This document shows positions 6,308 through 48,076 of a stretch of 64,000 nucleotides of DNA, piece by piece. Made by a program: the position numbers and the translations under genes. The notes beneath the pieces are model-generated. The model saw only the letters and a list, made by a program, of their open reading frames with translations. It had not been told where the DNA came from and did no database searches. The DNA is from Sternotherus odoratus (taxonomy: Eukaryota > Chordata > Testudines > Kinosternidae): the NCBI GenBank assembly GCA_032164245.1, contig JAVMKO010000006.1:104425310-104489309 (forward strand), given 5' to 3'. Every line of letters starts with the position of its first letter. Position 1 is the first letter of the stretch.

Positions 6308-6450
6308 CATAGAATCATAGATTTGGGTTGGAAGAGACCTCAGGAGATACCTAGACCAACCACCTGCCTGAAGCAGCACCAACCCCGACTAAATCATCCC
6401 AGCCAGGGCTTGGTCAAGATGGGCCTTAAAAACCTCTAAGGATGGAGGAT
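6308..6450 (-). mobile_element. CR1 3'-end fragment
   Basis: Begins CATAGAATCATAGATTTGGG with GGAAGAGACCTCAGGAG following, the complement of a CR1 terminus. It lies in the D1-C intron of copy 1. Confidence 0.8.
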
Positions 6451-7047: not shown

Positions 7048-7307
7048 CTCTGCTAGTGAGAGGTCACTGGGGATCAAGTAGAGGTGGAGGGTGATGTCCG
7101 CAGCCCTGCTGGACCGATAGAGCAGCACCAGAGTGTGGACCGGAGGAAACAGCGTGGAATAGACATGTCTCCAAAGCAGTCCAATCGGAGAGAAGCTGGG
7201 GTTCTCCAGCACGGCGTGGAACGGCCTCACCCGTCTTGGTCTTTCCAGGGTCATCCCACCGTCAACAAAATGGGCAACGTGAAGCTGAGAAACATCAACC
7301 TCTGCCG
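7048..7307 (-). CDS. FIIND copy 1, exon C (autoproteolysis site, UPA start)
   Basis: The exon is 260 bp with acceptor TTCGACAG and donor GCAGAG|GTAAGG. It encodes the core of the FIIND: VAHFVDGGMTLERP, then FHAVLENPSFSPIGLLW, then DITLHLYLIPSD. In mammalian NLRP1 the FIIND cleaves itself between Phe and Ser of a SFS motif with help from a His 27 residues upstream; here the His of 'AHF' is exactly 27 residues before the Ser of PSF|S. The site therefore looks intact. It joins exon B in phase 1 and exon D1 in phase 0. A second, very similar exon is at 45009-45262. Confidence 0.88.
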
Positions 7308-7559
7308 CTGTCGAAGGACAACAAAGAACACGAGATTTTACCTGTCTTGATCCTCTTGCTGGCTACAGGCTGGATCGGGGCCTGAGGGTCAGGACCCTGT
7401 TCCCTGCTCGGGAGGAAATGTCCACTGTAGACAGCTCAGTGCTCATTTACTCTTCCTAACGTGAGATCAGCACTTTGCAAGCAGTGCTTCTGGCTTCCTG
7501 TCCCAAAAGATCAAATGACCTCTGCCCAATTTCCTACTGAATCTATGGCTCTGGAATAA

Positions 7560-7877
7560 TCTTTGTCACGGCTCTGCTCCGACATTCTTTCTATACATTG
7601 GTGACCAAAACTGGACACAGTTCTCCAGACGAGGCCTCACCTGTGCTGAGTACAGTGGTGCTCTCACCTCCCGTGACTTGCATGCCACACTTCTGTTAAC
7701 AGAACCTAAAATTGCATTTGCTTTTTTTGCAACAACATCGCATTGCTGACTCATGTTGAGATTGGGATCAGCCACAGATCCCAGATCCATCTCAGCAGTG
7801 CTGCTGCTAAACCAGTTATCCTCCATTTTGTATTTGGGCATTTGGTTTTTCTTCCCCATGTGTAGCACCTCACATTT
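7560..7877 (-). mobile_element. CR1 LINE fragment
   Basis: Complement of a CR1 internal segment, including TGACCAAAACTGGACACAG and the antisense of the LGRNNQ-like region. It abuts an oppositely oriented CR1 at 7878. Confidence 0.75.
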
Positions 7878-8325
7878 CGAAGGGTGTGGATAAATTGGAG
7901 AGAGTTCAGAGAAGAGCCATGAGTATGATCAAACAATTAGAAAACCTGCCTTATAGCAAGATTCAAGGACCTCGATCTATTTCACTTAACAAAAGCAGTG
8001 ACTTGATCATACTTTATCAGAATCTCCATAGGGAACAAATATATAGTAATGGGCTCTTCAGTCGAGCAGAGAAAGGTCTAACAATCCAAAGCTGGAAGTT
8101 GAAGCTAGACAGATGTAGACTGGAAATAAGGCATACATTTGTAACAGGGACAGTAATTCACCATTGGAACAACTTCCCAAGGTTTGGGGTGCACTCTCCA
8201 TTACTGGGAATTTTTAAATCAAGATCAGATGTTTTTCTAAAAGATAGGCAAGACGTTTGGGGAACTTTTCTGTCTTGTGCTAGAGGTGATCACAATGGTC
8301 CCTTCTGACCTTGGAATCTATTCAT
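7878..8325 (+). mobile_element. CR1 LINE 3' segment
   Basis: The sequence runs from GTGGATAAATTGGAGAGAGT to TTCTGACCTTGGAATCTAT in CR1 order. The translation is open for about 140 codons (7886-8308), but this is retrotransposon coding sequence, not a host gene. Confidence 0.75.
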
Positions 8326-8417
8326 CTAAATACCTTTAAAAAGCTAGCTCACGGGAATCTCCTGTGTGGCAGAAAGGAATTACAGAATGCCGTTTGTAGA
8401 GTATTTTGCCACAGTAC

Positions 8418-8641
8418 CTGCCAGGCACAGGAAGTGCGGGAGGTGAACGGCTGCCACGGCCCCGGCTGGTTCCACCTGGATGTTGAACAAAGGTCCGGCC
8501 ACCATCCATTGCTGCTTCTCAGATGCGCTCAGATGCCGATCCCAGGAGTCGTATTCGTACTGGAGGGTCACGGCTCCCCTCACCTCGAACCCCAGTTCGG
8601 TTTCAGAGCAACGGAAGGAGCCTGCCCTCCGGAGGTGAACC
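8418..8641 (-). CDS. FIIND copy 1, exon B (ZU5 subdomain)
   Basis: This 224-bp exon has acceptor CACGCTATGCAG and donor CCTGGCAG|GTACTG. It encodes the ZU5 half of the FIIND: VHLRRAGSFRCSETELGF, VTLQYEYDSW, QQWMVAGPLFNIQVEPAG and VAAVHLPHFLCL. These align block by block with mammalian NLRP1. The exon enters in phase 2 from exon A (completing an Arg codon) and leaves in phase 1. Copy 2 exon B (47853-48076) is also exactly 224 bp. Confidence 0.88.
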
Positions 8642-25553: not shown

Positions 25554-25704
25554 AGCAGAGAGGCCACAAACAGACACGGAGAAATCACTCCGTGGCTGAC
25601 TGAGGACTATGCGGAGAATGAGGCGGTGCGAGGGGCCATGGAAGTCCTGAGGGTCAAGGACAAGATGGACCTGGCAGACCAGCTATTCCAGATGTCAGGG
25701 ACAG
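25554..25704 (+). CDS. FIIND copy 3, PYD-like partial exon
   Basis: Acceptor ATTGTCTCAG and donor GGGACAG|GTAAGC bound a 151-bp open exon ending in phase 1, as the PYD exon of copy 1 does. The product includes TEDYAENEAVRGAMEVLRV and KMDLADQLF, which fits helices 5 and 6 of a pyrin domain (compare VSYYGED.A...VLR.INM.DLAE.L in typical members). The first half of the domain is not recognisable and there is no start codon. It may be a truncated or highly diverged PYD. Confidence 0.5.
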
Positions 25705-26786
25705 GTAAGCGGGGAGCTCTCATGAGGCAATTGTCCGCTCGCTACGGGGGATCTTGTCTGTGGGTCTCCTTGTACAGGAACTGCCTGCTTATTGGCCTGC
25801 CGAACAGAGAGCAGCGATGCTGCGGGTTTCCTGGTACAATGGGAAGGGCAAAATTATGCAGTTCCTTCTCAAGCAAGACTGTCTCTGGGTGTCGAGTATC
25901 CACAGGGGTTTAGACTCCTCGCTCCTCAGCTGAGCTCCTCAAAGGGAGTTAGGGTCTTCCATTGGACCACCAAGGACCAGTACTTGACCGTTTGCGTCTC
26001 TCAGCCCAACCCCCATCTCTTACTTCTCCTTTCTCTTACTTCTCCTTTCCCAAATGGGAACTTATCCCCTTCACACCCAGTGGAGAACCACTTCATCCTG
26101 AGAGGGGAAACAGAGTCACGCTTTGGTTTTAAAAAAATATTACAGCAATTTCCCACATGCGCTACACAGGGAAATTCTGTATCAGGGAGAGGCAGGCGCC
26201 AGAGAGAGACCTAATATTGCAGGGGACGGGGAGGAGGAGAGAGACACAGGACAGATTTATTCATACTGAGAAAGAGGGAAAGGGAGAAGGGGTGTTGAAA
26301 GGGGAGGACAAAGGAGAGAAGAAGGCCTGTGTATGAGGCAAGACTGATGTGGTGCTACTCACACTCTGACATCCAAGGAACGTGATTTCTTGCTCCACCA
26401 ATCCAACAAGGAAGCAAACGTTCTCCTTCTTACGGGAGAGGGGTTGTTTCAGTCTCCGCCCCCCCCCCTCCCCCTCACCAATTCCTCATTGCAACATCCA
26501 CTGCCTCAGCTATGGGTCACCCCAAACCTTCTCCTGATGGCTCCCAAAGCCAGGCGCCCCTTCGAGTGTGTTACACGGTTGATGGAGAGTCCACAACCCT
26601 GTGTTAGCTGCGCCGAGAAGCTGGCCAAAGAGTTTCTCCTGGTGCCTAGGGGGATCCTGATGATCACCTTTGCTTGGGGCTTGCAGCATTTTCAGTGTTC
26701 GGTACCGCTGGGTTCAGTGGTAGCAGCCTCCTTTGAAATGCACTTGGCAACCTCACCTGTAACGGAACATTTTTGTCCATTTGCAG

Positions 26787-27031
26787 GAGAAAAGGCTGGT
26801 GCCTCCCAGATGCAAACTGTCCCCATTGTTGATGGGGGATTGACCCCGGAGAAGCCAATGCGGGTGAGGTCGATCCAAGCTGTGCTGGAGAACCCCAGAT
26901 TCTCCCCGACTCGACTTATTTTGATCTCTTCTGTGTTTATATTTATTCCAATCTATTCCCGGGTGCCGCAGTATTGGATATTCAGACCCCACGTCTTCTC
27001 CCGGAAACCCAAGAACCGTTCAGTAGAAAAG
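26787..27031 (+). CDS. FIIND copy 3, exon C-like (half-conserved)
   Basis: Acceptor CCATTTGCAG and donor GAAAAG|GTAAAT define a 245-bp open exon with the same phases as exon C of copies 1 and 2 (in at 1, out at 0). The first half is clearly FIIND: VDGGLTPEKPMRV and AVLENPRFSP. The Phe-Ser pair of the cleavage site remains, but the catalytic His position reads Pro and the preceding Ser is Arg. After this point the sequence (LILISSVFIFIPIYSRV) does not align with UPA. Autoproteolysis is unlikely. No convincing ZU5 exon precedes it. Confidence 0.6.
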
Positions 27032-28027
27032 GTAAATAAGAGTCGACAGCAATTCGCGGTACAGGGAGTCAGCAGCCACAGCAGGGCAAGGCATAAGGGC
27101 GATCTCAGGGCAGGGTGGGCAGCTGGGGTGTGAGAACAGCCCCTTCGTGCAGTGATAGATGAGGGCAATCAACCCCTTCAGAGTGTGTGAAGATGAACCT
27201 TATGCCCTGGGGGGCCCAAAGAAAATATCTAAGCTGCACCAACATTCCCCTCCTGCCCCAAACCCAGCGGGTTAGAGCCCTTCTCAGTACCTAGGGTAGA
27301 GAGCATGGCAGAAAGGAGTTGATGAGAGTTTTCTCCAGTTACACGTACAAACACAGTAGGAATGGGAAACAGGTGGCTCACGGAGGATAAGAAGACCCTT
27401 TCATGACAATTAATAGTTCTTTTTCAAATGCTCAGCCACCTCACACTGCTGGCGTATTCCATAGATCCTTGTGTCTGGCTAGACCCAGTCAAACAATTTT
27501 CTGTTGCCATGAATTGGAAATCATTGATAGATCTGCAGCCCTTTGTCACAGCAGCTATGTCATGGGACCTGGGGCTACAGCTGGGTGAAAACCAGATGTT
27601 TTATTTCATTGGCAGTTAAGAAAAGATTTTTAAACAATCATTTCGAGTCAGACTGAAACTGAAAACTTTCATACTGTCCAATCACTCAAAATCCCCCAAT
27701 AACCGTGTGTTGGATCAAAACAAAATGCTTCTTTTCAGCTGAGCATTTGAAACCATTTTTTCAAGGTTTAACCTTAAAATAAAGGGAAATTTCAGAAGCA
27801 AAGGTTTTATTTTGAAAATATCAAAACAAAACCTTTCAGGTTCTTTGGAATTGTTTTTCTATTTTTGCAACAAAACATTCTGCAGAATTTACATGCATTC
27901 ATTAAACATTTCAGTGTCACTGAATCTGCATTTTTCACCAAAAAATATTTCAGTCGAAATTCACCCCGTTCTAACTGGAATTCGCTGCCTTCCCTAAATC
28001 TGTTGAATGGAAACAAGGAGGGAAGAA

Positions 28028-28029
<2 letters not shown>

Positions 28030-28078
<49 letters not shown>

Positions 28079-28098
28079 GTGCGTGTGTGTGTGTTTAA
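28030..28098. repeat. (GT)n microsatellite
   Basis: About 33 GT units with a few GC interruptions. Confidence 0.95.
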
Positions 28099-28145
28099 GT
28101 GTTTAACTGGATCTCCCATAAGTGACTGTGCTAGACCTTTCACAG

Positions 28146-28271
28146 GCAACTGAAGAACATGAGACGTTCCAGTCAATTTCTTTGGAGAAGCTTCACCAAA
28201 ACCCTAGATCCCTGCCTTTTGGACCTCATCAGGGTGTGCCCAGTGTAGCGGATGCCACGACAAATCCAGCC
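28146..28271 (+). CDS. FIIND copy 3, exon D1 (UPA middle)
   Basis: Acceptor CCTTTCACAG and donor CCAGCC|GTAAGT bound 126 bp, the same length and phase (0/0) as D1 of copy 1. The product starts ATEEHETFQSISLEK, matching AIEDNEKKYQSIRVRK position by position at the start, then drifts. The exact length and splice frame argue that copy 3 was or is a spliced gene. Confidence 0.65.
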
Positions 28272-29129
28272 GTAAGTGAGATTATTTACAGAGCCCAGAT
28301 GTAGTGTGGTCCCTGAGAGAAGCCCCGTTAAGTTTAAGTCTATGGGCTGCCGGGTTCTGCACTAGCTGTCAATTGCAAATGGCCTTCAAGGGTAGCCGCA
28401 AGTTGAGCACTGCCAGGAGGCCAGTCTGGGGGTGACTTGGGGGTGAGATCCTGAATTTTGGAGGCAAAGTTGGCAAAAAACAAATAAAAAAATGCTGCTA
28501 GAGCAGTGCTGTGAAGCTTTTAGGCAGCTGCTGTACCCTTCATCACCCCAACGGTCCATGGCAGGGGTGTTGGGCTCCTCCCATCCCCCACCACTCCGGC
28601 CCACAAGCTGTGGCTATTTTGGATTCCTCCCTCTCCCTCGCCTCGCACACTGGGCCTAGTTATAACTCTCTCCGCTACTTCCTCCTCAACCCTAAGCAGT
28701 TTTACCTCTAATGGGTCATCTCGCCTGTGTATTAGGATCTAAACTTGACCCACAGATGGGCTGAGAATGGGCAGCCCTACACCAGGGACGTGGAAGAGGG
28801 AATGCCGCACAACTTAACAAAGCAGAAACACTTCACAAGTAAAAGAGAAATTGAACCTCGCCAGGCTGCCGTTCGGAGAGCAGGTAAACTCCATGGGATG
28901 CTGCTTCGTTCCGTGGTTTAAACTTTAAGCATTCAGACTCCTCCGGGCTCCTGGTTAATAGCCATGCTGTGTGACGTACGCACTCAACCCGCGGCCACAG
29001 GCTTGCTGTGGACAATAATGTAACACAGCTGAGTGCTGTGGGTGGCTTGCTGTAAATGTATTTCCCGGTTTTCAGAGGTTTGGGTTGAGCCAGATTCTGG
29101 ATGGGCAGGAGACAGCACTGGACAACCAT
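28272..29129. other. Intron of copy 3, no feature recognised
   Basis: No D2-type exon could be found here although one is expected. Confidence 0.45.
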
Positions 29130-29600
29130 AGAATCAGAGACTATCCGGGTTGGAAGGGACCTCAGGAGGTATCTAGTCCAACCCCCTGTTCAAAGCAGGA
29201 CCAATCCCAACTAAATCATCCCAGCCAGGGCTTTGTCAAGCCTGATCTTAAAAACCTCTAAGGAAGGAGATTCCACCACCTCCCTAGGTAACCCGTTCCA
29301 ATGCTTCACCACCCTCCTAGTGAAAAAGTTTTTCCTAATATCCAACCTAAACTGTCTCCACTGCAACTTGAGACCACTACTCCCTGTTCTGTCATCTGCT
29401 ACCACTGAGAACAGTCTAGATCCATCCTCTTTGGAACCCCCTTTCAGGTAGTTGAAAGCAGCTATCAAATCTCCCCTCAGTCTTCTCTTCTGTAGACTAA
29501 ACAATCCCAGTTCCCTCAGCCTCTCCTCATAAGTCATGTGCTCCAGGCCTCCAATCAGTTTTGTTGCCCTTCTCTGGACTCTTTCCAATTTTTCCACACC
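29130..29600 (-). mobile_element. CR1 LINE 3' segment
   Basis: Begins CATAGAATCAGAGACTATCC; the antisense frame 29211-29597 is open for 128 codons with [15 protein letters not shown], a standard CR1 block. A relatively well preserved copy. Confidence 0.88.
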
Positions 29601-30150
29601 TTAATCCTGACTTAACACTTGTGCTAAAATGAAGTGAGTGTAAAAAAAAATGTACAAATGTCAGTGTCTTGTTGTTCTGGAGGGGGCAGGGTAGCCACCT
29701 CTCTGTTCTAAAGAGCGTTTAAGGCATTTCTTGCTCCGTCACTCTGATCTTGGCTCTGAATCATTTGACCAGCCCCAGTAGAGACAGACCCACGTGGTGT
29801 GGGAATGGGAGACTGAGGCTTTTCCCGCAGTCCACCATAATAACCGTCAGAGATGACCTGGTTGAGCCAGGCTTTGCTTTAGCAACACTTCCAGGGAGCT
29901 AGAGTCAGGGGGTGGCTGTTTTGGTCTTAGTAGAGCAAAGTGAACGCTGGGGAGAATAATCCACATGTCTGTCTGCATTTGAAATGTGTTACTGATCCAA
30001 ACAGTCCAACAGGCCCTTTCCTGTTAGCTTTCCAGAGACTACCGAGCAGAGAGCTTTACGGACAGGAATATTCATGACAAGTGAATGTTTAGATGACGCT
30101 CAGTTGTAGGTTTGAGTGAAATGTTTGCAAGTCATGCTATGTGTTGGATA

Positions 30151-31260
30151 CAGTAGACTCTCAATTATCCAGGATGATCGGGGAAAAATTAATCCCGGTT
30201 AATAAAATCCCAGATAATCAAGAGCCATAGGAAATATGGGGGGGTGGGAGGGGTGCGCCGACCGCCCGGGGGTGGGGGGGTTCCCACCGCCTGCCCCAGT
30301 CAGTTCCCGCTGCTAGCCTGGGTGTAGGGAACCCAGGCTAGCAGCGGGAGCTGAGTGGGACAGGTGACTGGACCCTGGCTGGCAAGGGGCCAGCGGGGAA
30401 GCCCCAAAGCAGCGGTGGGCTGAGCGCTTAGCCTGCCACTGATTTGGGGTTCCCCCCCCCGGCTCCTGCCAGCTGGGGTCCCAGCCCGCTACCAGCCCGG
30501 GTGTAGGAAACTCAGGCTGGCAGCGAGCTGAGACCCCGGCTAAGCATTCAGCCTGCTGACGCTTTGGGGCTTCCCCTGCAGGCTCCTGCCAGCTGGGGTC
30601 CTACCACCTGCCCCAGTCAGCTCCCACTGCTAGCCCCAGGAACCCGGTGGCGGCAGCCCCAGGAGCCCAGTTACCATCCGTCCATATTTACCTGGCAGCA
30701 TGGTGGTAAGGGTAGTCCTGGGGGGCAGTCAGAGAGCAGGGAGTCAGGAGTTCTGGGCGGGGGGCTGTGGAGAGGGATCAGAGCAGTCAAGGCACAGGGA
30801 ATGGGGGGGGGGGAGTTGGATGGGTCAGGAGTTCTGGGAGTCCTTTCTGGGGGTGGGAAGCGGTTGGATAGGGGTGGGAGTCCCGGGAGTCTATCTGGGG
30901 GCAGGGGTGTGGATAAAGTCTGGGCAGGCAGGGGACAGGTAGGGGGTGGGCCCTAGGGGGCAGTCAGGAGGGCTTAAATAGGGGGTGGGATCCTGGGGGG
31001 CAATTAGGGGCAGGGGTGCCAGGAGCAGGCAGTCAGGGGACATGGAGCGGGGGGGGGGGGGCGTTGGGAGTGTTGAGGGGGGTGGGAAGTGGAGGGGAGT
31101 GTATGGGGTGGGGGCAGGGCCAGGGCCAGGGCCAGGGCCAGGGAGCGTCTTCCTCCCGTGGGGGTGCGTGCTCAAAAAAACATTTAGTGATGGGGGTCCG
31201 CGATTTAAAAAGTTTGCAGACCACTTCATTAGGATGAGGAAAACCTCTAGTCTCTGAGAG
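30151..31260. mobile_element. Tigger-like end followed by GC-rich repeats
   Basis: CAGTAGACTCTCAATTATCC, preceded by TA, is a pogo/Tigger terminal repeat. It leads into GC- and G-rich sequence with a hairpin (30301-30353) and (CCAGGG)n at 31117-31142. The right terminal repeat was not found, so the right border is a guess. Confidence 0.5.
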
Positions 31261-31418
31261 GCCGATATTGCAGCTCTGACGATAATTAATTAGAACATCA
31301 TGTGCCTGGTTCCGATCTGACTGGCTAAAGAGTCCCCACCTGTGGTGTGAGAGGAGCAGCATAAGCAGACAATTATTCAGCTAGAGGTTTGATTCACTTC
31401 TTCTTTTTCCTCTTCCAG

Positions 31419-31460
31419 GAGACTTGGATCCTCCTGCATCAGTGTCTGGTCCTCGCACCG
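31419..31460 (+). CDS. FIIND copy 3, linker exon E
   Basis: Acceptor TCCTCTTCCAG and donor GCACCG|GTGAGT bound 42 bp in phase 1/1. The product is DLDPPASVSGPRT. Copy 2 has a linker exon of the same length and phases at 38854-38895 (EDLTPSVSPPKMQT). In both genes it is followed by an exon that begins ACACA. Confidence 0.68.
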
Positions 31461-31845
31461 GTGAGTCCATCCTTCCGGGTGTGGGGCGTTGTCCTGTTTG
31501 CAGCACAAAAAGTAGAAGGAAAAGACTCATTCCCGAGACAGTGGCAGAGCTAGAAAGGGAACCTACAAGTCTGCATCGTCTCTGGGACTAATCCCTAGAA
31601 CTGCCCCTTTCCCCCCTCAGCTCCCACCTGCTCAGACGTAGACATGAAATCCAAACTCCCCATACTCCCCAGCCCTAGACAGCAGAACCTCCCCAACCAC
31701 GGGTGGATTCTAATCCAACACAGACATGAGGGGAGCACAGAGGCACTGAAGTTTGATCTACAGAAGGGTCGGGGTGGAGAAGGGAGGGTACCCAGGCCTG
31801 GGAGGGGGTATGGCTGGACTGTATCATTTGTTTCTCTTGTTATAG

Positions 31846-32243
31846 ACACAATCACAGGAAAAACAAGAAGAGATCTCCTGGTAAACACCTTGGATGACTT
31901 GGGAGAGAGCGAGTTGAAGCACTTCAAGAGCAAACTGACAGACATTGATCTGAAGGAGGGGTACGACCACATACCTAAAGGGAAACTGGAGACTTCAAAG
32001 TCTATAGAGGTCACTGACCTCTTGATTGGACACTACACAATGGATTATGCATTGGAAGTGACCACAATAGTGCTGGAAGCCATCAACCGGAAAGACCTGG
32101 CAAGGAGATTAAGAAGCGTAACAAGGACTGCTGAGGACTGGGACTGGCTGTGTCTACCTGCACCTGAAGATGTTACCCACAAATACCCATATTCACCATT
32201 GTTATATAATTATGCTAAGTTTTGTACAATTCATGCCTCGTGA
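31846..32243 (+). CDS. FIIND copy 3, C-terminal pyrin domain
   Basis: After acceptor TTGTTATAG the frame is open to a TGA at 32241. Residues from LLVNTLDDLGESELKHFKSK through GYDHIPKGKLETSKSI to NRKDLARRLRS form a complete pyrin domain (about 85 residues, six helices). A possible donor at 32117 (AAGAAGC|GTAACA) would end the exon after the domain; otherwise about 40 further residues run into an LTR-like sequence. The exon enters in phase 1 from the linker exon, as the CARD exon does in copy 2. Pyrin domains bind ASC-type adaptors. Confidence 0.82.
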
Positions 32244-32945
32244 GATATTTTAAAAGTCTTGATCTCTCGAACATTAATATTCTGTTGGATTGTATATGTT
32301 CTCATGGTTTGGGAAGTTAGTGAAGTTTTGCTATGTGTCTATTACTGAAATATATTGTGAGGTTGGGAACACCCACAACCAGCCTTTCAGGTACAACGAT
32401 GGTGAAGCCAGACAGTGGTTCATGATTCATCAACACCCATCAAGGAAAGAATCCACTATTCCAGAAACTGTAAACAATGGAGACTTCTAGAAGGGACCAT
32501 GCATACAGTGGAGGCTGCTTGACCAATGAGGACTGTCTCTTTCCAATGCCATAGCAAAAGATCTTTCCAGCAAGCTGGAAGAAACTATAAAAGAGGGGAA
32601 GTGAGATGATCACTTGGCCTTTCTCCCGCTTCCCCCCCAACTCAACATCTGGAGGAACATCTGGAGGACAAAGACATTGAACTGGAGAAGGGTGGTCTCA
32701 GCCTGTGTATTGAGGATCTGTGACCTTTTTTTAGCATCTGTGAGACACGGCTTGATTCAAATCCTTAGTTTCTAGAACTTAGAGTGCACATTTATTTTTA
32801 TTTCTTACGTAACCCACTTTGATCTCTACACTTGCTAGTTACAATAATCTTTTTGTAGTCAATAAAACGTGTTTTATATTTTACCTAAACCGGTGTTTTG
32901 GTTGAAGTGCTTGGGAAAGCCTAGCTCCGTCTACAAAGGTAGCTG
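32170..32945 (+). mobile_element. LTR-like sequence
   Basis: A TATA-like CTATAAAAGAGGGG near 32585 and AATAAAACGTG near 32862, with promoter-to-polyA spacing typical of an LTR. The start is placed where the PYD reading frame loses its family similarity. Target duplication not established. Confidence 0.4.
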
Positions 32946-38138: not shown

Positions 38139-38395
38139 CTATTTCCCCTCAAACTCGTCAACCAGGTGTCTGTGTTTGTCCTTCAGCGCCTGGTAGAGCT
38201 GTTCTTTGCAGTCTGTGTTCCAGCTCGGGACCAGCTCGTACAGCTTCCGCATCTTCTCCGGGTTGGTTCTCTCGGCTCTGACGCTCTGGTATTGTTCAGT
38301 ATCCAGAACGGGACCATGCAGTAAATCCAAGATGCAGTCCACTCCGGTCACCCGCTGGATCAGCTGTTCTCGGTGCTGGTCGACAAAATGTGTGT
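38139..38395 (-). CDS. FIIND copy 2, terminal exon: CARD
   Basis: Acceptor TTCCACTCAG, then 257 bp to a TAG at 38139-38141. The product has [26 protein letters not shown] and [11 protein letters not shown], then [19 protein letters not shown]: a complete CARD closest in pattern to those of NLRP1, CARD8 and ASC. In NLRP1 and CARD8 the CARD freed with the UPA fragment nucleates caspase-1 activation; a similar role is inferred here. It joins linker exon E in phase 1. The short tail after helix 6 (EGK then stop) fits a C-terminal CARD. Confidence 0.9.
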
Positions 38396-38691
38396 CTGAG
38401 TGGAAGAGACAGGATGACTCAGGGGGTGTTCGCATGTTTGCTAATATAGATCTTTACAATTTCCCTAGTGAGTTTCATCCCAGTACTTGGCAGTATGGAT
38501 ACAGAGGGACTGATCCCTCCGTGCCAGAATGCAGCCACCTCTGGGGCAGCAATGCTGAACATGTGGGCAAAACAAGACCTTAAATAGGGATTTCTCCGCC
38601 TGATTTCTTTGCTTTAGAAAGGAGAAATCAGCCTGTTTGAGAGAAGAATTGGATTTAGAAACTGGCATTTGAAGCTCTGTGAATTCCCACA

Positions 38692-38847
38692 GGGATAGCT
38701 CAGTGGTTTGAGCTAAACCCAGGGTGGTGAGTTCAATCCTTGAGGGGGCCATTTAGGGATCTGGGGCAAAAAATGTGTCAGGGGACAGTACTTGGTCCTG
38801 CTAGCTTTCAAGGTCTTTCCAGTTCTGTGAGATATGGAGATATATAG
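38692..38847 (+). mobile_element. Cry-type tRNA-derived SINE
   Basis: GGGATAGCTCAGTGG (box A) and GGTGAGTTCAATCC (box B) in a tRNA-like head, followed by GAGGGGGCCATTTAGGGATC and a tail with 'CTTTCAAGGTCTTTCCAGTT'. This is the family described from cryptodiran turtles. It ends about 5 bp before the splice donor of linker exon E of copy 2, inside the intron and opposite to the gene. Confidence 0.88.
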
Positions 38848-38853
38848 ACCCAC

Positions 38854-38895
38854 CTGTTTGCATCTTAGGGGGTGAAACAGAAGGCGTCAGGTCCT
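38854..38895 (-). CDS. FIIND copy 2, linker exon E
   Basis: This 42-bp exon has acceptor TCTCTTCCAG and donor CAAACAG|GTGGGT. It encodes EDLTPSVSPPKMQT between the UPA and the CARD. Phase 1 on both sides. The same-sized exon occurs in copy 3. Confidence 0.72.
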
Positions 38896-39236
38896 CTGGA
38901 AGAGAAAGGCACAGGGAGTCAGCAGGGGTTTACTTTTCACTAATATGTCACGTGGTGCCATTTTACCCTTGATTGGCTTGAGAGGCGCTGAGGGCTCAGT
39001 TTTACACCAGAGGTAAATCTGAGATCAGAATCCGGCCCTGACTCCACGTGATGTGAGTGGAGTTTCTGGGCTCAGAATCTGGGCTGAGCGTGATCCCTGA
39101 GCATCTCTCGCGTACAGGGTCCCCGGTTTTCAGAGACACAGGAAGTGCTGAAGCAGCCGAGACTGAACTTGGAAGATTTCACTCGACATTGAGGTGGTCA
39201 AAGATATTAATGCTGCTGGTTCCTATCCTGTAGTGC

Positions 39237-39614
39237 AGAGGTCCCCAAACTGTGGGGTGCACCCCCCCTAGAGGGACAGGGAGGAACATTGGGGGGGGGC
39301 ACGCAGAGGGGACGGAGTGCCAGCCACCCCAAGAGGTGTGGAGGGAGTGCCAGCGGGTCTTCCAGCCCTGTGCCGCCCCCAGCCTCAGTCCTGCTCTGGG
39401 TCCAGGCCCCACTTGGCTCTCACGCCGTCTCCACCCGCTGACTCGCTCCACTTCTAGCCCCAGCTCCTTCCCCATCCCCAGTTCCACCCCCAGCTCTGCC
39501 TACTCCAAGCTCTGCGGCTGAGGAAGCCTTGGCTATGCAGGAATGGAAGGAGGTCATGGACGGATTCAGTTACTGATAAGTGGGGGTGCGACTGGAAAAG
39601 TTTGAGCACCGCTA
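39237..39614. mobile_element. hAT-type non-autonomous element
   Basis: The ends CAGAGGTCCCCAAACTGTGG and AAAAGTTTGAGCACCGCTA are typical inverted-type ends of a vertebrate hAT family. GC-rich interior without transposase. Confidence 0.6.
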
Positions 39615-39616
39615 CT

Positions 39617-39748
39617 GTAGGGTGACCAGATGTCTCCGTTTTATAGGGATAGTCCTGATATTCAGGGTTTTGTCTTATATAGGCACCTATTAACACACAC
39701 CCCCCACCGCTGTTCCAATTTTTCACACTCGCTATCTGGTCAGCCTGC
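39617..39748. mobile_element. Short MITE
   Basis: TAGGGTGACCAGATGTC at the left and GCTATCTGGTCAGCCT at the right are inverted ends of a ~125-bp MITE common in turtle DNA. Confidence 0.65.
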
Positions 39749-40194
39749 TGCTACTGAGAAAATCCATGACCAAGAGAGCAAACTTATTAGAAAGCACTGG
39801 CAAGTCTGTTTTGTGCTCTCATGTCCTCTGCCGGAAGGAATCCGATCTGCTCAGGTGTGTATCATCATGAGCCTTGATAGCCAGGTGACCATTACTGACC
39901 TCCTGTTTCCCTGTCTGCCCTTGAGTTATACTGTACTACACCCAGCATGCAGGCCGTTCCGTTAAGCAAATGGATTGTGTTCTTCCCAGGGTTCTGTTCA
40001 CCCATGCTACACTCCCACAATACCTTGCAACAAGTCTTTGACAAAAGCGAATAGAGAACCTAGCAAAGACGATCCATTCGTTCTATAGCCTAGTGCAAGT
40101 TTAGGAGGTGCTTTCATGAACAACGGGTTTGGCATGCTGTGTTCAAACTAAGCTATGGGAATGTTACAAGGAAATATAAAAACAAAGCTGGCAC

Positions 40195-40461
40195 AAACTC
40201 AACAGAACAAGAAGCAATGGTCTCAAGTTGCAGTGTGGGGAGGTCTAGGTTGGTTATTAGGAAACACTATGTCACTAGGAGGGTGGTGAAGCACTGGAAT
40301 GGGTTACCTAGGGAGATGGTGGAATCTCCATCATTAGAGATTTTTAAGGCCCAACTTGACAAAGCCCTGGCTGGGATGATTTAGTTGGTGTTGGTCCTGC
40401 TTTGAGCAGGGGATTGGACTAGATACCTCCTGAGGTCCCTTCCAACCCTGATGTTCTATGA
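40195..40461 (+). mobile_element. CR1 3' end
   Basis: The frame from KQEAMVSSCS-like text to GLPREMVESPSLEIFKAQLD, then the terminal GATGTTCTATGAT, is a CR1 3' end. Lies in the E-D2 intron of copy 2. Confidence 0.88.
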
Positions 40462-41023
40462 TAAAGCTTTAGGTGGCATATGCACTGCTTTCCACTTGTA
40501 AACAACCATATTCCAAATATGTATGGGTGTATCTTTGAAGCAAACCCACTGTGTAAGGTCAACTCTGTGAGATCACTTCCTGAAAGGCCATGTATGACCA
40601 CAATAAATATTTGGCTAAACTGGGTTATTTGGTTTCTTGAATATTTTTCAAGACGAACCACAAGTGTAGCCCAACAATTGGTTATACATTTAGCAACAGC
40701 CCCTAGACACCTTACAGCCGGTGGGGATGCATCTTCATTCCTGGGGCTGCCCACAGCAGAAGGTTTATCCTTGCGGTCACCACACAATTCCAAGTGTTCA
40801 CTGTTTGCAGCCGCAGGGCATCAATGAGGCTCTTACTGACCAGAGATTTAGGGCGATAATCTTGAGTTTTGTGCCCTTCTGCCTCTCCCACCTATTTGCC
40901 AGTCCCCCCACACACTGCCAAATCCTGCTTCGCTGTGCACAGAAGGCGTGTGCCAGGCATCATGAGAGGTGCTGGCTGGGGGCTGTGTACACAGATATCT
41001 CCCCACTGCCAGGCTGAGCCTAC

Positions 41024-41165
41024 CTCGTCTGACAACAGCCTCCCAGATAGGCTTCTCGTCATTTTTCTCCGCCAGGCTGAGCTGCAGCTCCTCCTTTACC
41101 TCCTTGGTGTGGATCTCCGTGAATGGCTGAAGAGCTTCTGCCGGTTTATCTAAAAATGGCAGCTC
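41024..41165 (-). CDS. FIIND copy 2, exon D2 (end of UPA)
   Basis: 142 bp, acceptor TCCCTACAG, donor GACGAG|GTAGGC. The product includes ELPFLDKPAEALQPF and EELQLSLAEKNDEKPIWEAV, matching D2 of copy 1 in length, phase and sequence. It ends in phase 1 and joins exon E. Confidence 0.85.
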
Positions 41166-41394
41166 CTGTAGGGAAACTAAGCGTGAAATTAGGGGCGACC
41201 CGCCAATCTCCAACCCAGGCAAGCAGGGCTGGGAAAGGGGGTGAGGTGTGTTTGTCAGAGCTGGTCATAGAAGACCGGATTCCTCAAAACTTTCTCCAGC
41301 CAGACCCCATTTGCGTGCATACGTTGGGGAATATTCAGCCGCTGGGATACGGAACCAACTGGTAGCCTGGGCGTTATTCACTGAGTATCCCACA

Positions 41395-41765
41395 TCAGTG
41401 TTCAGTTCTCGGGCTTCGTGATTGGTTACATCAGCAGTATAGTTTTAACACATCTAGATTACAGCCAGAATCAATGCCCCAAGACCAAAGCACCAGCGGT
41501 CGATTTAGCGGGTCTAGGGAAGACCCACCAAATCGACCGCCGATCGCTCTCCAGTCAACCCCGCTACTCTACCCCGATGAGAAGAGTAAGCTAAGTCGAT
41601 GGGAGAGATTCTCTCATTCACCCCCCCCCCCCAGTGTGGACCCCCCCAGTAACACTACCTCAGGTAGGTACGTCGACTCCAGCTACACTCCAGCTATGTT
41701 ACTCACGTAGCCGGAGTTGTGTGCCTTAGACTGACTTACTGTTGTAGTGTAGACCTAACCTAATA
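41395..41765. mobile_element. MITE-like fragment
   Basis: Shares 'GTCGACTCCAGCTACACT' and 'GTAGTGTAGACCTAACCT' with the MITE-like sequences near 22955-23640 and 34197. Degenerate; borders approximate. A run of 14 C lies at 41619-41632. Confidence 0.5.
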
Positions 41766-42052
41766 CGATACACTCCCTTTTCCTTCCATGGATCCCAAAG
41801 CTTGTTAAGCCGGGCCAGTATCATTATCCCCTGGGGAAACTGAGGCACACAGCCAGATGGAGGGCATTGGAATCATCAGGCAAGAGCATCTCCCCCATAC
41901 TGAGCTGCCCACATTCCTCCCTGCAGCAAAGGCCCCCTTGCACCACACTAGCAAGTTGGGGCCAGCACTGATTCAGAGAGGAGAGTGCTTTGCCCGGATC
42001 CCTGCAGCCCCATGCTCTTGAGTTCCATGTTCACTTCCATGATTTTACTTAC

Positions 42053-42181
42053 GCTGGGTGTTACTGTTATCGCCGATGGGCTGGACACAATGCAGCAACA
42101 ACCGAAGCACAAGGGTTTAGAGGTGAAATGAGATTTAGACACAAACCACGACCGGCACTTCTTTTCATAGACCTCAACTGC
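42053..42181 (-). CDS. FIIND copy 2, exon D1 (UPA middle)
   Basis: 129 bp (43 codons, phase 0/0), acceptor ATGATTCACAG, donor CCCAGC|GTAAGT. The product AVEVYEKKCRSWFVSKSHF then KPLCFGCCCIV and ITVTPS corresponds to D1 of copy 1, one codon longer. It is rich in Cys compared with copy 1. Confidence 0.78.
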
Positions 42182-43146
42182 CTGTGAATCATAAGGACAG
42201 TCGTGTCTGAGAGACACACAAAGAAAACACTACAGTAGTCCCTCAGCCAGAGCGGTCAGGGTGTGAATTGTCTTCCCACACAGCAGCCTTGCAGAGAAGG
42301 GTCTTTGTTAAAAATGAAAGAAGAAAATCTGTCTGGGTTTAAGACCAGGACCGTGATATGGGGAGAATGTTCATTGTTGTCATGTTGATAATAAGGTATC
42401 GTAATTTGAAGCAATCAATTTAATATGACAGATTTTGCCCTCTTTTACAAATTGGCTGCAAACAGACTGATTTACTCAGATTTGTTATTCGAAATTATTT
42501 TCGATGACTCATCTAAGTTACTGAACCTGTTTATTTCTAGCTTGTCGTGATGCTTACGTCTGTAGATGTCACAGAGAACAAAAACATGCTCTCCTAGGCC
42601 AGTTCTCTTTCAGTAACCCCATGCCCTAGTGTGAGAAGTTCCTTACTATACGAGGGCAAGTGAACACGAATCACACCAATTGTACACTGTGGTTGATTCT
42701 CAGTTATTGTAAAAAGGTCCCTCTGAACCCAGACCTGAACCCTACCCCTGCCTCAGTTTCCCCTGGCGTGCCCCCAGTTTCCCCCTCTCCAGCAGTTTAC
42801 AGCCGGCATCCAGCGCTTTATATCACTAAGGTGACTCAACCCTCCAGATGGTCCCAGGTTATAAACCAAAGTACTGAAACAACACACACATGTCTCACCC
42901 CAGGAAGAGCCCTGCCTCCAGGGGCCTGTTGTCTCCCAATAGTCATCCAGCTCATCTGGGCTCAGCTTCTAGCCCTCCTGGGCTCTCTTCAGTCTTTTCA
43001 TTTTCCTCTTGTTCATACGGGTAGCTGGTCCCCTGCACAGGGGAAAGCCGCACCCTCCCTTTCCTGTGACTTCCCAGCTCTCCGACCCCTACACAACCAG
43101 GTGTCTACCCCATAATCTAGACTCCCTGGCTTCTTCCTACACACTC
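42182..43146. other. Intron, no feature recognised
   Basis: AT-rich to 42660, then mixed composition; a plus-strand frame of 151 codons is not supported as a gene. Confidence 0.45.
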
Positions 43147-43735
43147 TGTGACGGAGTAGGAATGCTTTTAAGCTTCCTCTGGCTATTGTGTGAAGGTGTC
43201 CATACCTGAAGCTGTAACTTGACTGGGGGGGGGGGGTCACCTGACCTGGCTGGGCCAGGGGCTGGAGAGAGTGAGTTTCAGTTTGGAGTCTGCAGCTGGC
43301 TGGAGGGGGGGGGGGGGGGGGTTGAGTCTGAAGCTGGGTGGGCAGAAGGGAGGCAGGGTCTGGCCTCCCTGGCCCCCCAAAATGGATCCAGCTGAGGGGT
43401 TCGGGTACCTACAAGCTCGGTGTTAGACCATGTACCTGTCGATGAATAAACCTGTTTTACTGGCTGGCTGAGAGTCACGTCTCACTGTGGAGTGGGGTGC
43501 AGAACCCATGGGCTCCCCCAGGACCCCGCCCGGGCGGGCTCGCTGGGGGAAGCGCACGGAGGGGCAGAAGGTGCTGAATGCTCCGAGGTGAGACCCAGGA
43601 AGGTTGAAGTGGGTACCCATAAAGCTCTTAGCCTTGGAAACAGGCTGTGTACGGAGAGGGGACACTCCCCCCCCGGAATCCTATCTGGCTTCCTAGGGAG
43701 CAAGTTCCAGACCCTCGCCCGAGCACTCCGTGACA
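43147..43735 (+). mobile_element. Endogenous retroviral LTR
   Basis: Starts TGTGACGGAG, ends CTCCGTGACA, with AATAAACC near 43446. The 3' half is very similar to the LTR at 10110-10561; the 5' halves differ. Flanks CACTC and CACTT give a possible 5-bp duplication with one mismatch. Two long oligo-G runs (43226-43236 and 43305-43321). Confidence 0.7.
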
Positions 43736-45008
43736 CACTTCCATCCCCCAAGCTCTGGATGAACCAACGAGTCCCAGGTCTACTCTTCTTACCATCTCCA
43801 TGATCTGCTTCCCCTTTGCCCAAAGCCTGTGGTCATCCCCCTTAACGGGCCTGATCTGGTCACATGACTCTGTCTACTGACTCTCCCCTTAATTCCATTC
43901 ACCTCGGGAGGGGGGCCCCAGCCCTGGTTAATCGCCAGCTCACCCCACGAGAGTCGTGACAAGCTGGGGGCTGCTTATGAATTCTGCCTATTATGGAGCT
44001 ATTCTGAAACGTTACCGTGGAAAACATTGGCAGCATGAATTCACACCGCATCCCTGTGTGTGGACTCACGGCGGGCTAGCAGGGCTGAGTCTGATCCTCC
44101 CAGAACAGATACAATGGGAAGATACTGTGGTAAACCCAGAACAGGCAGCTACCAGATGGGGTGGTGGTAAGAGAAGTAACCACAGGCTAACTGGGTTCAG
44201 CTGAGTAGAGGTTGCCAGAGACCCAGGCAAGATCAACTACTGCCAAGTAAGGGCTGTCAGAGACCTTTTTAAACGTTAGGAAGGAAAGAAAGAGAGAGAG
44301 AGTGAGGCTGCCAGTTGGCTGGGGGCAGCAGGGCAGGAAACCCCTCCAAGAAGGGAAGCTGCATTCCCTGGTCAGAGAGGAGGAAAAAAACCCAGCCAAA
44401 GAACTGCCTGAGGGGAGGAAGATCTTGCCCTTGGGCATGCTAGGCAGTCTGGCTGGCCAACGCTTGTCTCTCCAGAGCATTAAGGACTTGAGCCTGGTGA
44501 GTCAGAGAAGGCTCTTTGTCACAGTACTTAGGGATAATGATAGTGCTCTGACTGCACAACTGTTATGTGAAAGAGCAACCTCCTCCCAAGAGAAAAGAGG
44601 GGGGCAGTTTTTGGAGCAGTGGAAAGTTACCAAGAAAAGCAGGTGTCGGGAGGGGGCAGATAAGCTAGTGAGACCCACGGGAACCTCTGGGAAGGAAGGA
44701 GGACGGTCACCTGAGCTGATGAAGAAGCCTTGATGAGGGAGAGGCCACCCAGAATGGAGGGGCTGCAATACCTGTCCTGAGCCCAGATGCCCTCCCAAGG
44801 GAAGGGTGAGCTAGTGAGGGGCATTGCCGCTAAGATGTTGACTGCTCTCTATATGATCTGTGCGCCCTTGTGTTTTGTTTGATTAAGGGAAAGAGCAATA
44901 ATGAGTCTTGTGTGTGTTCCGTGCTTCACACCAGCCCCATTGGCCCTGAGAGAGTTCCACCGGAACTGGGTACGTGTGTGTTCCCATAAGGCTCACACTA
45001 TGGATTAC
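43736..45008. other. Intron of copy 2, no feature recognised
   Basis: Long frames on both strands at 44187-44824 are not supported by family similarity or splice sites. Confidence 0.45.
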
Positions 45009-45262
45009 CTTGACCCGTGAGCCGTCCTCAGGTATCAGGTAGAGGTGGAGGGTTAAATTAACTCTCTTCTGTGCCTGGTAGAGCAGGACAATGGAATGGA
45101 TCTGAGTTTGCTGACCAGAATGCTCCCTCCTCCAAAACACTCCAATCGGAGAGAAGCTGGGGTTCTCCAGCACGGCGTGGAACGGCGTCACCCGCGTTGG
45201 CTTCTCCAAGGTCATCCCCTCCTCGATGAAATGGGCGATCCGCATCTGGGACTTGTCAGCAT
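45009..45262 (-). CDS. FIIND copy 2, exon C (autoproteolysis site, UPA start)
   Basis: 254 bp, acceptor CCCACTGACAG, donor GTCAAG|GTAATC. The product has RIAHFIEEGMTLEKP, FHAVLENPSFSPIG, then NLTLHLYLIPED. The His of AHF is 27 residues before the Ser of PSF|S, the geometry of the mammalian NLRP1 catalytic pair, so self-cleavage is predicted. Phases match exon C of copy 1; copy 2 is two codons shorter. Confidence 0.9.
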
Positions 45263-46063
45263 CTGTCAGTGGGTCACAAAGCAAAAGAGGCTCCGTTAGC
45301 CTGTCCTCATTCTCCTACTATCCGAGAGGCGGCTTGTCCACCGGAGTTCTGGAAACGCCCATCCCTGTCGCTCCATGGGTTGCTGGGACTTCACAAGGTG
45401 CCTCCGCTGCTTGCCCTGACCCCCAGCTCCCAAGGACATCTCAGCCCACTGCTCGCCTGCCTGTGTATAAACCCCCGGATATCCAGGCAGTCTGTCCTGC
45501 TTCTGGAAATGGGAGCAGAGTCCAATAAAATCTACACTCCTCGGGCTTAGCCAAAGCTCACAGTCCAGTCATTCTTAGTAAATGACGTGGAGAGGTGAAA
45601 GCGCTGGGTGAAAGGGCCTGCGTTAGCAGCACACAGAAGTATAGGCGGTGCTATGCCAGGGTTGTCTTATAATGGGGAAGGTAGGATCCTCTTTACAATT
45701 GTTTATCATTTTGACAAACTTTAACCATTTGGACTGAAGTTTCCCGAGCAAGATCCCTGCCTCAGATGGATGGGGTTTTTTGTTTTGTTTTCTTAATTTC
45801 AGCACAAATGGTTCCGCCATTTCTAAGAATAAGATTAAGGAAAAATACATTGTTTTGCCAGTGTTAAAAATATTCTTATTGTTTGTGAAGCTCAAACACA
45901 TTCATGATTAGTAGCAGGGGTGTGACATTTGGCAGGGGGCTGTCTAGGTGCCAGGGTTGTGCTTCATGCTGTTCCTGTGAAAATCCATGCAAGTGTGACC
46001 GAGTTTGCATCTCACCTTGTACATGTTCGCTAGAAACTTGTTAGAGTGTCAGCTAAACTCCGA
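45263..46063. other. Intron, no feature recognised
   Basis: Nothing recognisable in either orientation. Confidence 0.5.
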
Positions 46064-47035
46064 CGAGTCATAGGACTGGAAGGGACTTTGAGAGGGTGTC
46101 TAGTCCAGTCCCCTGCTCTCATAACATGACTAAGTATTATACAGACCACCCCGACAGGTGTTTGTCTAATCTGATTTTAAAAATCTCCAATGATGGAGAT
46201 TCCACAACCTCCCTGGGCAATTATATTCCAGTGTTAACCACCCTGACAGTTGGGAAGTTTTTCCTTAACGTCCAACCTAAACCTCCCTTGCTGCAATTTA
46301 AGCCCATTGCTGCTTCTCCTATCCTCAGAGGTTAAGAACAACAATTCTTCTCCCTCCTCCTTGCAAGAGCCTTTTATGTACTTGAAAACTGTTATCACGT
46401 CTCCTCTCAGTTGTATCTCTTCCAGACTAAACAAACCCAATTCTTTCAAGCTTCCCTCATAGGTCAGGTTTTCTAGAACTTGAATCATTTTTGTTGCTCT
46501 TCTCTGGACCTTCTCCAATTTGTCCACATCTTTCCTGAAATGTGACGCCCAGAACTGGACACAATCCTCCAGTTGAGGCCTAATCAGTGCTGCATGGAGC
46601 AGAATTACTACTTGTGTTTTGCTTACTTCTGTTAATACATCCCAGAAGGATGTTTGCTTTTTTTGCAAGAGGGTCAAACTTTTGACTCATATTTAGCTTG
46701 TGAAGCACTATGACCTCGGATCCATTTCCACAGTGCTCCTTCCTAGGCAGTCATTTCCCATTTTGTACGTGTGCATCTGATTGTTCCTTCCTAAGAAGAG
46801 TACTTTGCATTTGTCCTTATTGAATTTCATCCTATTGACCTCAGACCATTTCTCATGTTTGTCCAGATCATTTTGAATTCTAATCCTGTCCTCCAAAGCA
46901 CTTGCAACCCCTCCCAGCTTGGTATCGTCCACAAACATCATAGGTGCACTCTCTATGCCCTCAACTAAATCATTGAAGAAGATATTGAACAGAACCAGAC
47001 TCAGAACTGATCCCTGGAAGATCCCACTCATAATG
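46064..47035 (-). mobile_element. CR1 LINE, long antisense segment
   Basis: From GAGTCATAGGACTGGAAGGG to the antisense of IFFNDLVEGIE. The translation on the minus strand is CR1 reverse transcriptase C-terminal half in two main frames (46708-47031 and 46234-46677). Frameshifted. Confidence 0.88.
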
Positions 47036-47852
47036 CCCTTCTACACTGGGCATGTGCCAACCTTTACTCTCCAGGCAACTGATCCTCTCAACAGCAGAAC
47101 TGAGAGCAGGGAGCCGGTCTCTCCTGTGCTATCAATGCCTCCTTGTGGGCCTCCAGGCACTGCAGAGGAGGAGGCCTTCTGACTGGAAATCAAAGGGGCA
47201 AAAGCCAGATGTGGGGGAGAGGCAGAGAGAGCAGGATGGGATGAAGAGTCCGAGGGTGGGCCACAGGGACTGGGGACAGGTAGTGGAGGAGAGGGGGATC
47301 AGATCTGGGAGGTATTTGGAAAAGACTAGGTCTGGCTAGGCAAGGAAACTGAAACTGGGATAAGTAGTTGGACGGGGGTGGAACAGGGACAGGATGGGAG
47401 GGACGGGGGGCAGAAAGTTCTGTGACCAGAAGCCAACACTCCCCTCCAGAGCCTGGAATCTAATCCTATTTTCTCAACATTCCTCGGCTGCCAGTAAATC
47501 ATTGTGATACCCATGGGATAAGTGATACCCCCCTCTAGTGTCTGATCCACATAGAAGATGACAACTTATTATTGCTAACAGTCGCAGAGGGGGCTGAATG
47601 AAGATTGCATAGGCAGCCTTAATTGCAGCATTTCCTAATTTTTGAATGCTTGACTTTGCAACCTTAACTTTCTCTTAACATGTTGTTATATTAATAGCTG
47701 GGATTATGATGTTCTTTAAGGGTGTGATTATGACTCCTGGCCACTATTTTCTGGGCCACTCTGCTTTAAGGTTACAATCAAGATCACCCTTATTGTTAAT
47801 ACCGTTACCATGGTGATTAAAGTCACACTGTTGCGTCTGATTCCGACCATAC
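47036..47852. other. Intron, no feature recognised
   Basis: No coding signal; 47560-47850 is AT-rich. Confidence 0.5.
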
Positions 47853-48076
47853 CTCTGAGACACAGGAAGTGCGGGAGGTGAACGGCTGCCACGGTCCCGG
47901 CCGGTTCCACTCTGATGTCAAACAAAGGGCCAGCCGCCATCCATTGCTCCTCCTGCGATTCAGTCAGATGCAGCCTCCAGGAGTCATATCCGTATTGGAG
48001 GGTCACAGCTGCCCTCACCTCGAACCCCAGCTCAGTTTCAGGGCAACGGAACCAGCCTGCCCTCGGGAAATGAACC
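47853..48076 (-). CDS. FIIND copy 2, exon B (ZU5 subdomain)
   Basis: 224 bp, acceptor CTGGATACGCAG, donor CTCAGAG|GTATGG. The product has VHFPRAGWFRCPETELGF, VTLQYGYDSW, EQWMAAGPLFDIRVEPAG and VAAVHLPHFLCL. Identical length and phases to exon B of copy 1. Confidence 0.9.

Follow-up and report, generated by a model that had tools for sequence, protein, structure and literature searches.

A stretch of 64,000 nucleotides from the turtle Sternotherus odoratus (contig JAVMKO010000006.1, forward-strand positions 104,425,310 to 104,489,309; in the following, the window) contains a cluster of FIIND-type genes. Profile scans assigned copies A and B to the minus strand and a diverged copy C to the plus strand, where it lies within 25554-32243. 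In copy C, UPA exons and a linker exon are followed by an exon for a pyrin domain (PYD), which takes the place of the CARD exon of copy A. This domain swap had been proposed in a first-pass annotation of the DNA; it is real in copy C and is common to predicted proteins of other turtles. Judging from the sequence, we lean towards the view that copy C is a FIIND-descended turtle gene in which a PYD exon replaced the terminal CARD exon, and that its product is likeliest a modulator of ASC, resembling the PYD-only proteins (POPs), rather than a sensor that releases a fragment.

Exon chain and terminal pyrin domain of copy C

Candidate exons were AG..GT segments from both strands of the window that had the phases needed, an open frame and a length close to that of a known exon. 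Human and rat NLRP1, CARD8 and the two copies A and B served as references for the UPA segments, and the copy A linker alone for the linker. The splice-site scores are based on a table of human frequencies. For copy C, six plus-strand exons of compatible order and phase were found, which lead from an ATG at 25638 to a stop codon at 32241 and encode 341 residues. The coding sequence of 1026 nt (342 codons including the stop) is free of internal stops and frame errors. Neither the disrupted frame nor the lost splice sites of a pseudogene were found; the frame is open, and GT-AG borders are present at all five introns. When copies A and B are set aside, each exon is the best in the window, and the exons fall in gene order. 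When joined, the UPA and linker exons are collinear with residues 938-1111 of rat NLRP1 (E 1.6e-5). Three predicted proteins, P0122 from Trachemys, P0123 from Chelonoidis and P0127 from Mauremys reevesii, are orthologs of copy C and were compared with every exon.

Exon 1 (25554-25704, 5' limit provisional) contains the ATG at 25638 in the context GCCATGG and ends in phase 1 with a donor, CAG/GTAAGC, that is in the top 0.1% of all GTs. In tblastn, P0122 and P0123 align at this ATG from residue one, and P0127 gave no match to the exon at E 0.01. The exon 1 peptide weakly resembles the last helices of a PYD: among 2000 shuffled sequences, 8 scored as well against the window's own PYD, 37 against ASC and 190 against a second PYD at 17 kb. 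Exon 1 could possibly be a remnant of an ancestral N-terminal PYD, to which this resemblance faintly points. Exon 2 (UPA1, 26787-27031, phase 1 to 0) comprises the end of ZU5, the cleavage motif ENPRFSP and the start of UPA; its profile match has an E value of 1.5e-9, and it is 62% identical to P0122 over 93 columns (tblastn).

Exon 3 (UPA2, 28146-28271, phase 0 to 0) is the 126-bp exon that had been called D1 and was present as described; UPA2 has 129 bp in copy A and 126 bp in copy B. Its score of 17.6 is the best of the window outside these copies, with the next unrelated segment at -1.0 (856 segments), and tblastn with the three orthologs gave E values of 1.1e-5 to 8.8e-5. Exon 4 (UPA3, 28736-28883, 148 bp, phase 0 to 1) likewise has the best score outside copies A and B, 7.6 compared with 0.8 for the next unrelated segment (853 segments), and E values of 4.3e-7 (P0122), 1.2e-10 (P0123) and 1.4e-8 (P0127). 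The first-pass annotation had joined 28146-28271, 31419-31460 and 31846-32117 directly. This chain breaks the frame and never reaches the PYD in frame; UPA3 restores it. From the translations and a three-sequence profile, UPA3 had appeared to be missing and the frame to be broken, a result that was overturned by the exon-phase scan.

The linker, exon 5 (31419-31460, 42 bp, phase 1 to 1), has the proposed start and length, and shares its length and phase with the copy A linker (38895-38854). It ranks second among 1550 segments behind that linker itself, the sole reference, with a score of 18.0 compared with 14.0 for the next segment. The terminal exon 6 (31846-32243) encodes the PYD, to about 32117, and a C-terminal tail, and ends with the stop codon at 32241-32243. 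It adjoins a pyrimidine-rich acceptor and opens with AC-ACA in phase 1, and the claim that the CARD exon opens in the same way holds for copy A. An exon end at 32117 had been proposed, but the donor there is weak (40.7% of all GTs equal it) and the tail is common to the turtle orthologs; therefore, the exon probably runs through to the stop. The only AATAAA between the stop and 33600 is a candidate polyadenylation signal at 32861-32866 of the plus strand, and the TATA pattern searched for did not occur between 25350 and 25640.

The domain encoded from 31846 onward is a full PYD, as had been predicted (Pfam PYRIN, E 1.5e-21), and its closest relatives in the PDB are ASC PYDs. The best AlphaFold2 model, from an alignment of two rows, has six helices and a mean predicted local distance difference test (pLDDT) value of 87.8; the means of the other models were 87.5, 74.9, 74.5 and 72.3. 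The best Foldseek match of the model is the ASC PYD 7e5b (template modelling score 0.90). Profile scans found no CARD above chance on the plus strand of the window.

Charged residues were compared in the same set of PYDs as used for the PYD tree (see below), from which 16 matches of 40 bits or less in 14 proteins were left out, including a C-terminal fragment in P0097. At ASC positions, the C-terminal PYDs have lysine at 21 in 19 of 19 rows; lysine or arginine occupies position 26 in 18 of these rows and position 41 in 16. In the N-terminal PYDs, a basic residue (K/R) stands at 21 in 4 of 17 rows and at 26 in 8 of 17. According to an excerpt of PMC7555848, POP1 contacts E13 and D48 of ASC through a positive patch of K20, K21 and R41. 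Engagement of ASC by the copy C PYD is plausible.

In tblastn, the orthologs match the window exons in order, P0127 from exon 2 onward. All three proteins start with MEVLRARDKK... and lead from UPA into PYD. P0122 passes from UPA3 to the PYD by way of a linker similar to that of copy C (GDMEHPASVSDPPTG); P0123 and P0127 lack this linker, and the PYD follows UPA3 directly in them. The ortholog PYDs are 84-90% identical to the copy C PYD, and PYD plus tail are 78-90% identical (tblastn). The orthologs carry two tandem PYDs, compared with one in the window gene, and their tails run past the window stop, which comes about ten residues earlier than that of P0122.

Function of copy C and alternative readings

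The first-pass annotation had called copy C a FIIND gene whose C-terminal fragment, if transcribed, would be UPA-PYD. The UPA half of a FIIND was indeed found, but the phase-compatible plus-strand segments at 22.0-26.8 kb include no ZU5 exon; the best candidate scored -9.2, compared with 231 for copy A and 221 for copy B. ZU5 was also undetected in P0122, P0123 and P0127. His252 and His270 are described as crucial for CARD8 processing in an excerpt of PMC3210808. In the His270 column, copy C has proline and Trachemys retains histidine; Chelonoidis and Mauremys reevesii each show a gap. The F-S of the cleavage site is kept in copy C, and in Trachemys the phenylalanine is replaced by valine. The UPA of copy C has retained 25 of 42 hydrophobic core columns and 21 of 39 invariant columns. 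For the core, the three orthologs reach 34-35 of 42 and six turtle FIIND-PYD proteins with ZU5 reach 39-42 of 42, and leave-one-out controls with five reference sequences kept 42-43 of 42-45. UPA1 of copy C has suffered a deletion and has lost core residues, and Pfam UPA-FIIND, which matches copy A at 7.9e-21, has no match in copy C. ZU5 loss and UPA decay co-occur in copy C and the three orthologs. Since ZU5 was not found, the histidine is replaced by proline and the UPA core has decayed, we do not expect copy C to release a UPA-PYD fragment, although such a fragment that recruits ASC fits the wider class of turtle proteins described below.

We infer that copy C gives rise to a protein, that this protein does not undergo autoprocessing, and that its PYD acts on PYDs of the ASC type. 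The ancestral UPA part would now serve mainly as a leader or linker, and the protein would modulate ASC assembly as a PYD-only protein does, rather than sense and release a fragment. Modulation is favored because the parts for clustering and release are gone from copy C. A UPA that lacks its ZU5 partner would presumably cluster PYDs without restraint, and decay of the UPA may therefore have been tolerated or even favored.

Several observations weigh against this interpretation. The PYD charge patterns do not separate a nucleator from an inhibitor, because the NLRP3-ASC contact has the same mode as the POP1-ASC contact (PMC7555848, excerpt). The partner residues also vary: E13 is lysine in all 10 rows of the other clade of C-terminal PYDs, and D48 is lysine or threonine in all 7 rows of the clade of the window PYD. 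The model of the Trachemys ortholog (mean pLDDT 60.5, predicted template modelling score 0.33) speaks for a modulator, with pLDDT values of about 88-98 in the two PYDs and 29-47 per ten-residue block in the UPA, but it has no intact UPA as a control. The fast divergence of the UPA could also reflect early decay of the whole gene. The UPA1 start of P0123 and P0127 matches the window in a different frame, so that gene models or frames differ and these two have not retained the ZU5 remnant at the protein level. Lastly, the orthologs that support the joined chain are predicted proteins.

Three alternatives were considered. Copy C might yield a UPA-PYD product that nucleates ASC directly by its PYD and drives inflammasome formation. 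The order and frame of UPA and PYD are real, the positive patch of the PYD is mostly retained, and a product without ZU5 would require no cleavage; in addition, an excerpt of PMC7794386 reports that, owing to UPA, CARD filaments of the C-terminal fragments of NLRP1 and CARD8 (NLRP1-CT and CARD8-CT) form at a lower threshold. However, the decayed UPA core, the low confidence of the UPA model in the Trachemys ortholog and the missing Pfam match all argue against this reading, and an unrestrained activator would presumably need some other restraint; we consider direct nucleation unlikely. It is also improbable, in our estimate, that copy C is a formerly coding gene that is losing its function in Sternotherus odoratus, with the PYD eroding last. 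Over common columns, its UPA shares only 54-60% identity with the orthologs, compared with 73-87% among the orthologs themselves. Its UPA end branch has a length of 0.52 in the quick FIIND tree, compared with 0.013-0.099 in the orthologs (whose rows fill 26-40% of the columns), and the UPA1 deletion, the core residue losses and the early stop point in the same direction. In contrast, the frame is intact over its whole length, and in neutral simulations that started from copies A and B, 175-187 codons stayed free of stops in only 0.08-6.3% of the runs (0.2-0.6 changes per site). Furthermore, the copy C PYD is 88-91% identical to the ortholog PYDs, within their mutual range of 85-96% (common columns), and the ratio of nonsynonymous to synonymous changes (dN/dS) between it and the 17-kb PYD is about 0.21, a value that is unreliable because synonymous sites are close to saturation.

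The third alternative, that the PYD exon forms an independent PYD-only gene that starts by itself downstream of relic UPA exons, appears highly improbable. An in-frame ATG exists at 31644, and the frame is open before the exon. Yet the pyrimidine-rich acceptor lies directly at the PYD, and the three ortholog proteins start upstream and pass from UPA into PYD; the first-pass annotation had named a PYD first exon as the outcome that would speak against a domain swap, and they lend it no support. The only other PYD exon found in the window (17270-17033, minus strand) opens with an ATG and ends with a phase-1 donor, unlike that of copy C. Our preferred interpretation remains an ASC modulator of FIIND descent.

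FIIND-PYD proteins of turtles and further features of the window

A search with copy A gave 233 matches at E <0.001, turtle FIIND proteins among them, of which the best 120 were used; when the UPA-PYD part of one turtle protein served as the query, 18 matches were obtained, including 13 new ones. Domains were mapped on these 133 database proteins and on copies A, B and C. In the 136 rows, UPA is followed by a PYD in 17, by a CARD in 93 and by neither in 25, and one row has no FIIND. The 17 are copy C and 16 of the 133 database proteins, a count that is not a frequency because the second search was seeded with a FIIND-PYD protein and the first was confined to the best 120 of 233. Fifteen of the 16 are assigned to turtles of eight genera (Dermochelys, Pelodiscus, Mauremys, Trachemys, Chelonoidis, Lepidochelys, Gopherus and Carettochelys), and the remaining one is P0036; confinement of the architecture to turtles holds for the 133 proteins examined. 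P0097 is counted by a PYD fragment of just 24 residues, and P0125 and P0126 represent two isoforms from a single locus. P0054 and P0097 are labelled "CARD8-like" in databases, and the profiles found no CARD in either. P0036 was read from a contig of 2399 bases, compared with 4.5 kb for ZU5 to UPA3 of its relative copy B, which suggests that the contig is a transcript after splicing or a copy without introns. In the snake protein P0132, a PYD is present at the N-terminus only. A search for PYD-only proteins gave no match, but its length limits left out longer relatives that were found later.

ZU5 was detected in 12 of the 16 database proteins, and in the six ZU5-bearing turtle proteins that were checked, the histidine and the F and S of the cleavage site are all kept. 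The role of sensor would fall to the turtle FIIND-PYD proteins with ZU5, UPA and cleavage site: once these are autoprocessed and have lost their N-terminal part, the UPA would cluster the PYDs, and ASC would be nucleated by PYD contacts. The first-pass annotation had contrasted recruitment of ASC by PYD with recruitment of caspase-1 by CARD. This contrast calls for caution: human NLRP1-CT depends on ASC, and of the two human proteins CARD8-CT alone engages caspase-1 directly (PMC7794386, excerpt).

In a PYD tree of 38 rows, 17 of the 19 C-terminal PYDs group together (support 82/86), and P0021 and P0036 stand apart among the N-terminal PYDs (87/87); a single clade of all 19 was not rejected by the approximately unbiased (AU) test (0.42). 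The window PYD falls into a clade of seven rows with P0122, P0123 and P0127 (99/98). Two trees of the FIIND were calculated from hand-chosen rows, a quick one with 59 and a careful one with 40 of the 136 rows, the latter without gappy members such as copy C. The PYD-tailed proteins were scattered in the quick tree, with five changes of the terminal domain, at least three of which are forced by starred branches. The careful tree required three changes, at least two of them forced, and rejected a single clade of PYD-tailed proteins (AU 1.3e-7). The terminal domain has thus changed more than once. As an example, the PYD-tailed P0062 and the CARD-tailed P0040, both of Mauremys mutica, have 86% identity over a stretch of 202 residues, beyond which they diverge. 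We read these results as repeated exchange of terminal PYD and CARD exons among FIIND genes, by shuffling or gene conversion; a single acquisition of the PYD, followed by reversions to CARD, is also compatible with the trees. Taken together, we tentatively propose that turtles have obtained autoprocessing FIIND-PYD sensors by repeated replacement of CARD by PYD, that the released UPA-PYD would seed ASC, and that copy C could be a ZU5-less offshoot with a restraining role.

Copy A, the FIIND-CARD gene used for comparison, occupies 38139-48076 of the minus strand, with exons for ZU5 (48076-47853), UPA1 (45262-45009), UPA2 (42181-42053), UPA3 (41165-41024), the linker (38895-38854) and CARD (38395-38139). 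Its joined exons match Pfam FIIND (5.4e-47), UPA-FIIND (7.9e-21) and CARD (1.4e-16), and its nearest relatives, like the orthologs of copy C, point to a turtle as the source of the DNA. Copy B (4140-8641, minus strand) consists of ZU5 (8641-8418), UPA1 (7307-7048), UPA2 (5963-5838) and UPA3 (4281-4140), and no terminal exon was found for it within the window. Of the rows compared, P0021 of Dermochelys is closest to it (86% identity over 249 columns) and has two CARDs, FIIND and a C-terminal PYD; because this relative ends in a PYD, copy B may also be PYD-ended, past the window edge. Short tblastn matches to the segment that precedes ZU5 in turtle FIIND proteins, at 11816-11356 and 48905-48780 of the minus strand, are probably upstream exons of copies B and A, respectively.

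The window contains three CARD exons, all on the minus strand. Two further CARD frames lie about 1 kb apart on this strand, at 62976-62374 and 63912-63622; in the second, the match to the CARD profile is confined to its last two thirds. The PYD first exon at 17270-17033 is followed by a C2H2 zinc-finger frame (15044-14052, minus strand); the two match the N-terminus of P0125 of Dermochelys with 76% and 78% identity. PYD, zinc fingers and FIIND occur together, with both an N-terminal and a C-terminal PYD, in P0124-P0126 and P0128-P0130 from Lepidochelys, Dermochelys, Gopherus, Pelodiscus and Carettochelys, a combination that is either a real fusion or a repeated artefact of gene models. CARD8-like or NLRP1-like proteins of turtles and birds (P0049-P0051, P0053, P0069 and others) are listed with a ubiquitin domain (PF00240) in addition to FIIND and CARD, and P0022 of Dermochelys is a predicted protein of 475 residues with six consecutive CARD matches and no FIIND. 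An endogenous retrovirus at 53748-59290 (plus strand) has gag, dUTPase and protease domains in a single frame, with more frames after it. The GIY-YIG frame at 22973-22275 (minus strand; Pfam 1.1e-5) is presumably part of a Penelope-like element.

Comparison with known systems

In NLRP1 and CARD8, FIIND is followed by CARD, according to excerpts of reviews (PMC7483925, PMC12436146). No description of a FIIND-PYD architecture was found among the matches listed, as far as titles and abstract openings tell; most subscription journals and bioRxiv lie outside this search. The term "UPA-PYD" had no match, and in the text portions seen, the pairing of "FIIND" with "C-terminal PYD" concerned ASC, human NLRP1 or a fusion construct, and never FIIND followed by PYD. 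Turtles may trigger inflammation through a different terminal domain, PYD instead of CARD. With their interchangeable terminal domain, they are a natural system in which to ask whether any death-fold domain can be clustered by UPA, whether a PYD alone suffices for FIIND release to drive ASC, and how the choice of effector evolves.

What mainly sets the six ZU5-bearing FIIND-PYD proteins of turtles apart from FIIND-CARD proteins is the terminal domain. Copy C resembles NLRP1 and CARD8 in that its UPA exons have the order and phases of those of copy A, the linker has the same length and phase, F-S stands at the cleavage position and a death-fold domain is terminal. It differs from them by a PYD in place of the CARD, the ZU5 that was not found, the lost processing histidine and the decayed UPA core. 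A PYD where relatives have a CARD is also described for zebrafish CaspA and CaspB (excerpt of PMC8122782); these, however, are caspases and not FIIND proteins. ASC (PYCARD) has the closest solved PYDs in both sequence and fold, but in ASC the PYD precedes a CARD, whereas the PYD of copy C is terminal, with no CARD above chance on the plus strand. In comparison with POP1, copy C has a longer, FIIND-derived leader and an unrelated genomic origin, and its three orthologs carry two PYDs. Nevertheless, copy C shares with POP1 a PYD without a sensor module, a mostly kept positive patch and an ASC/POP1-like fold.

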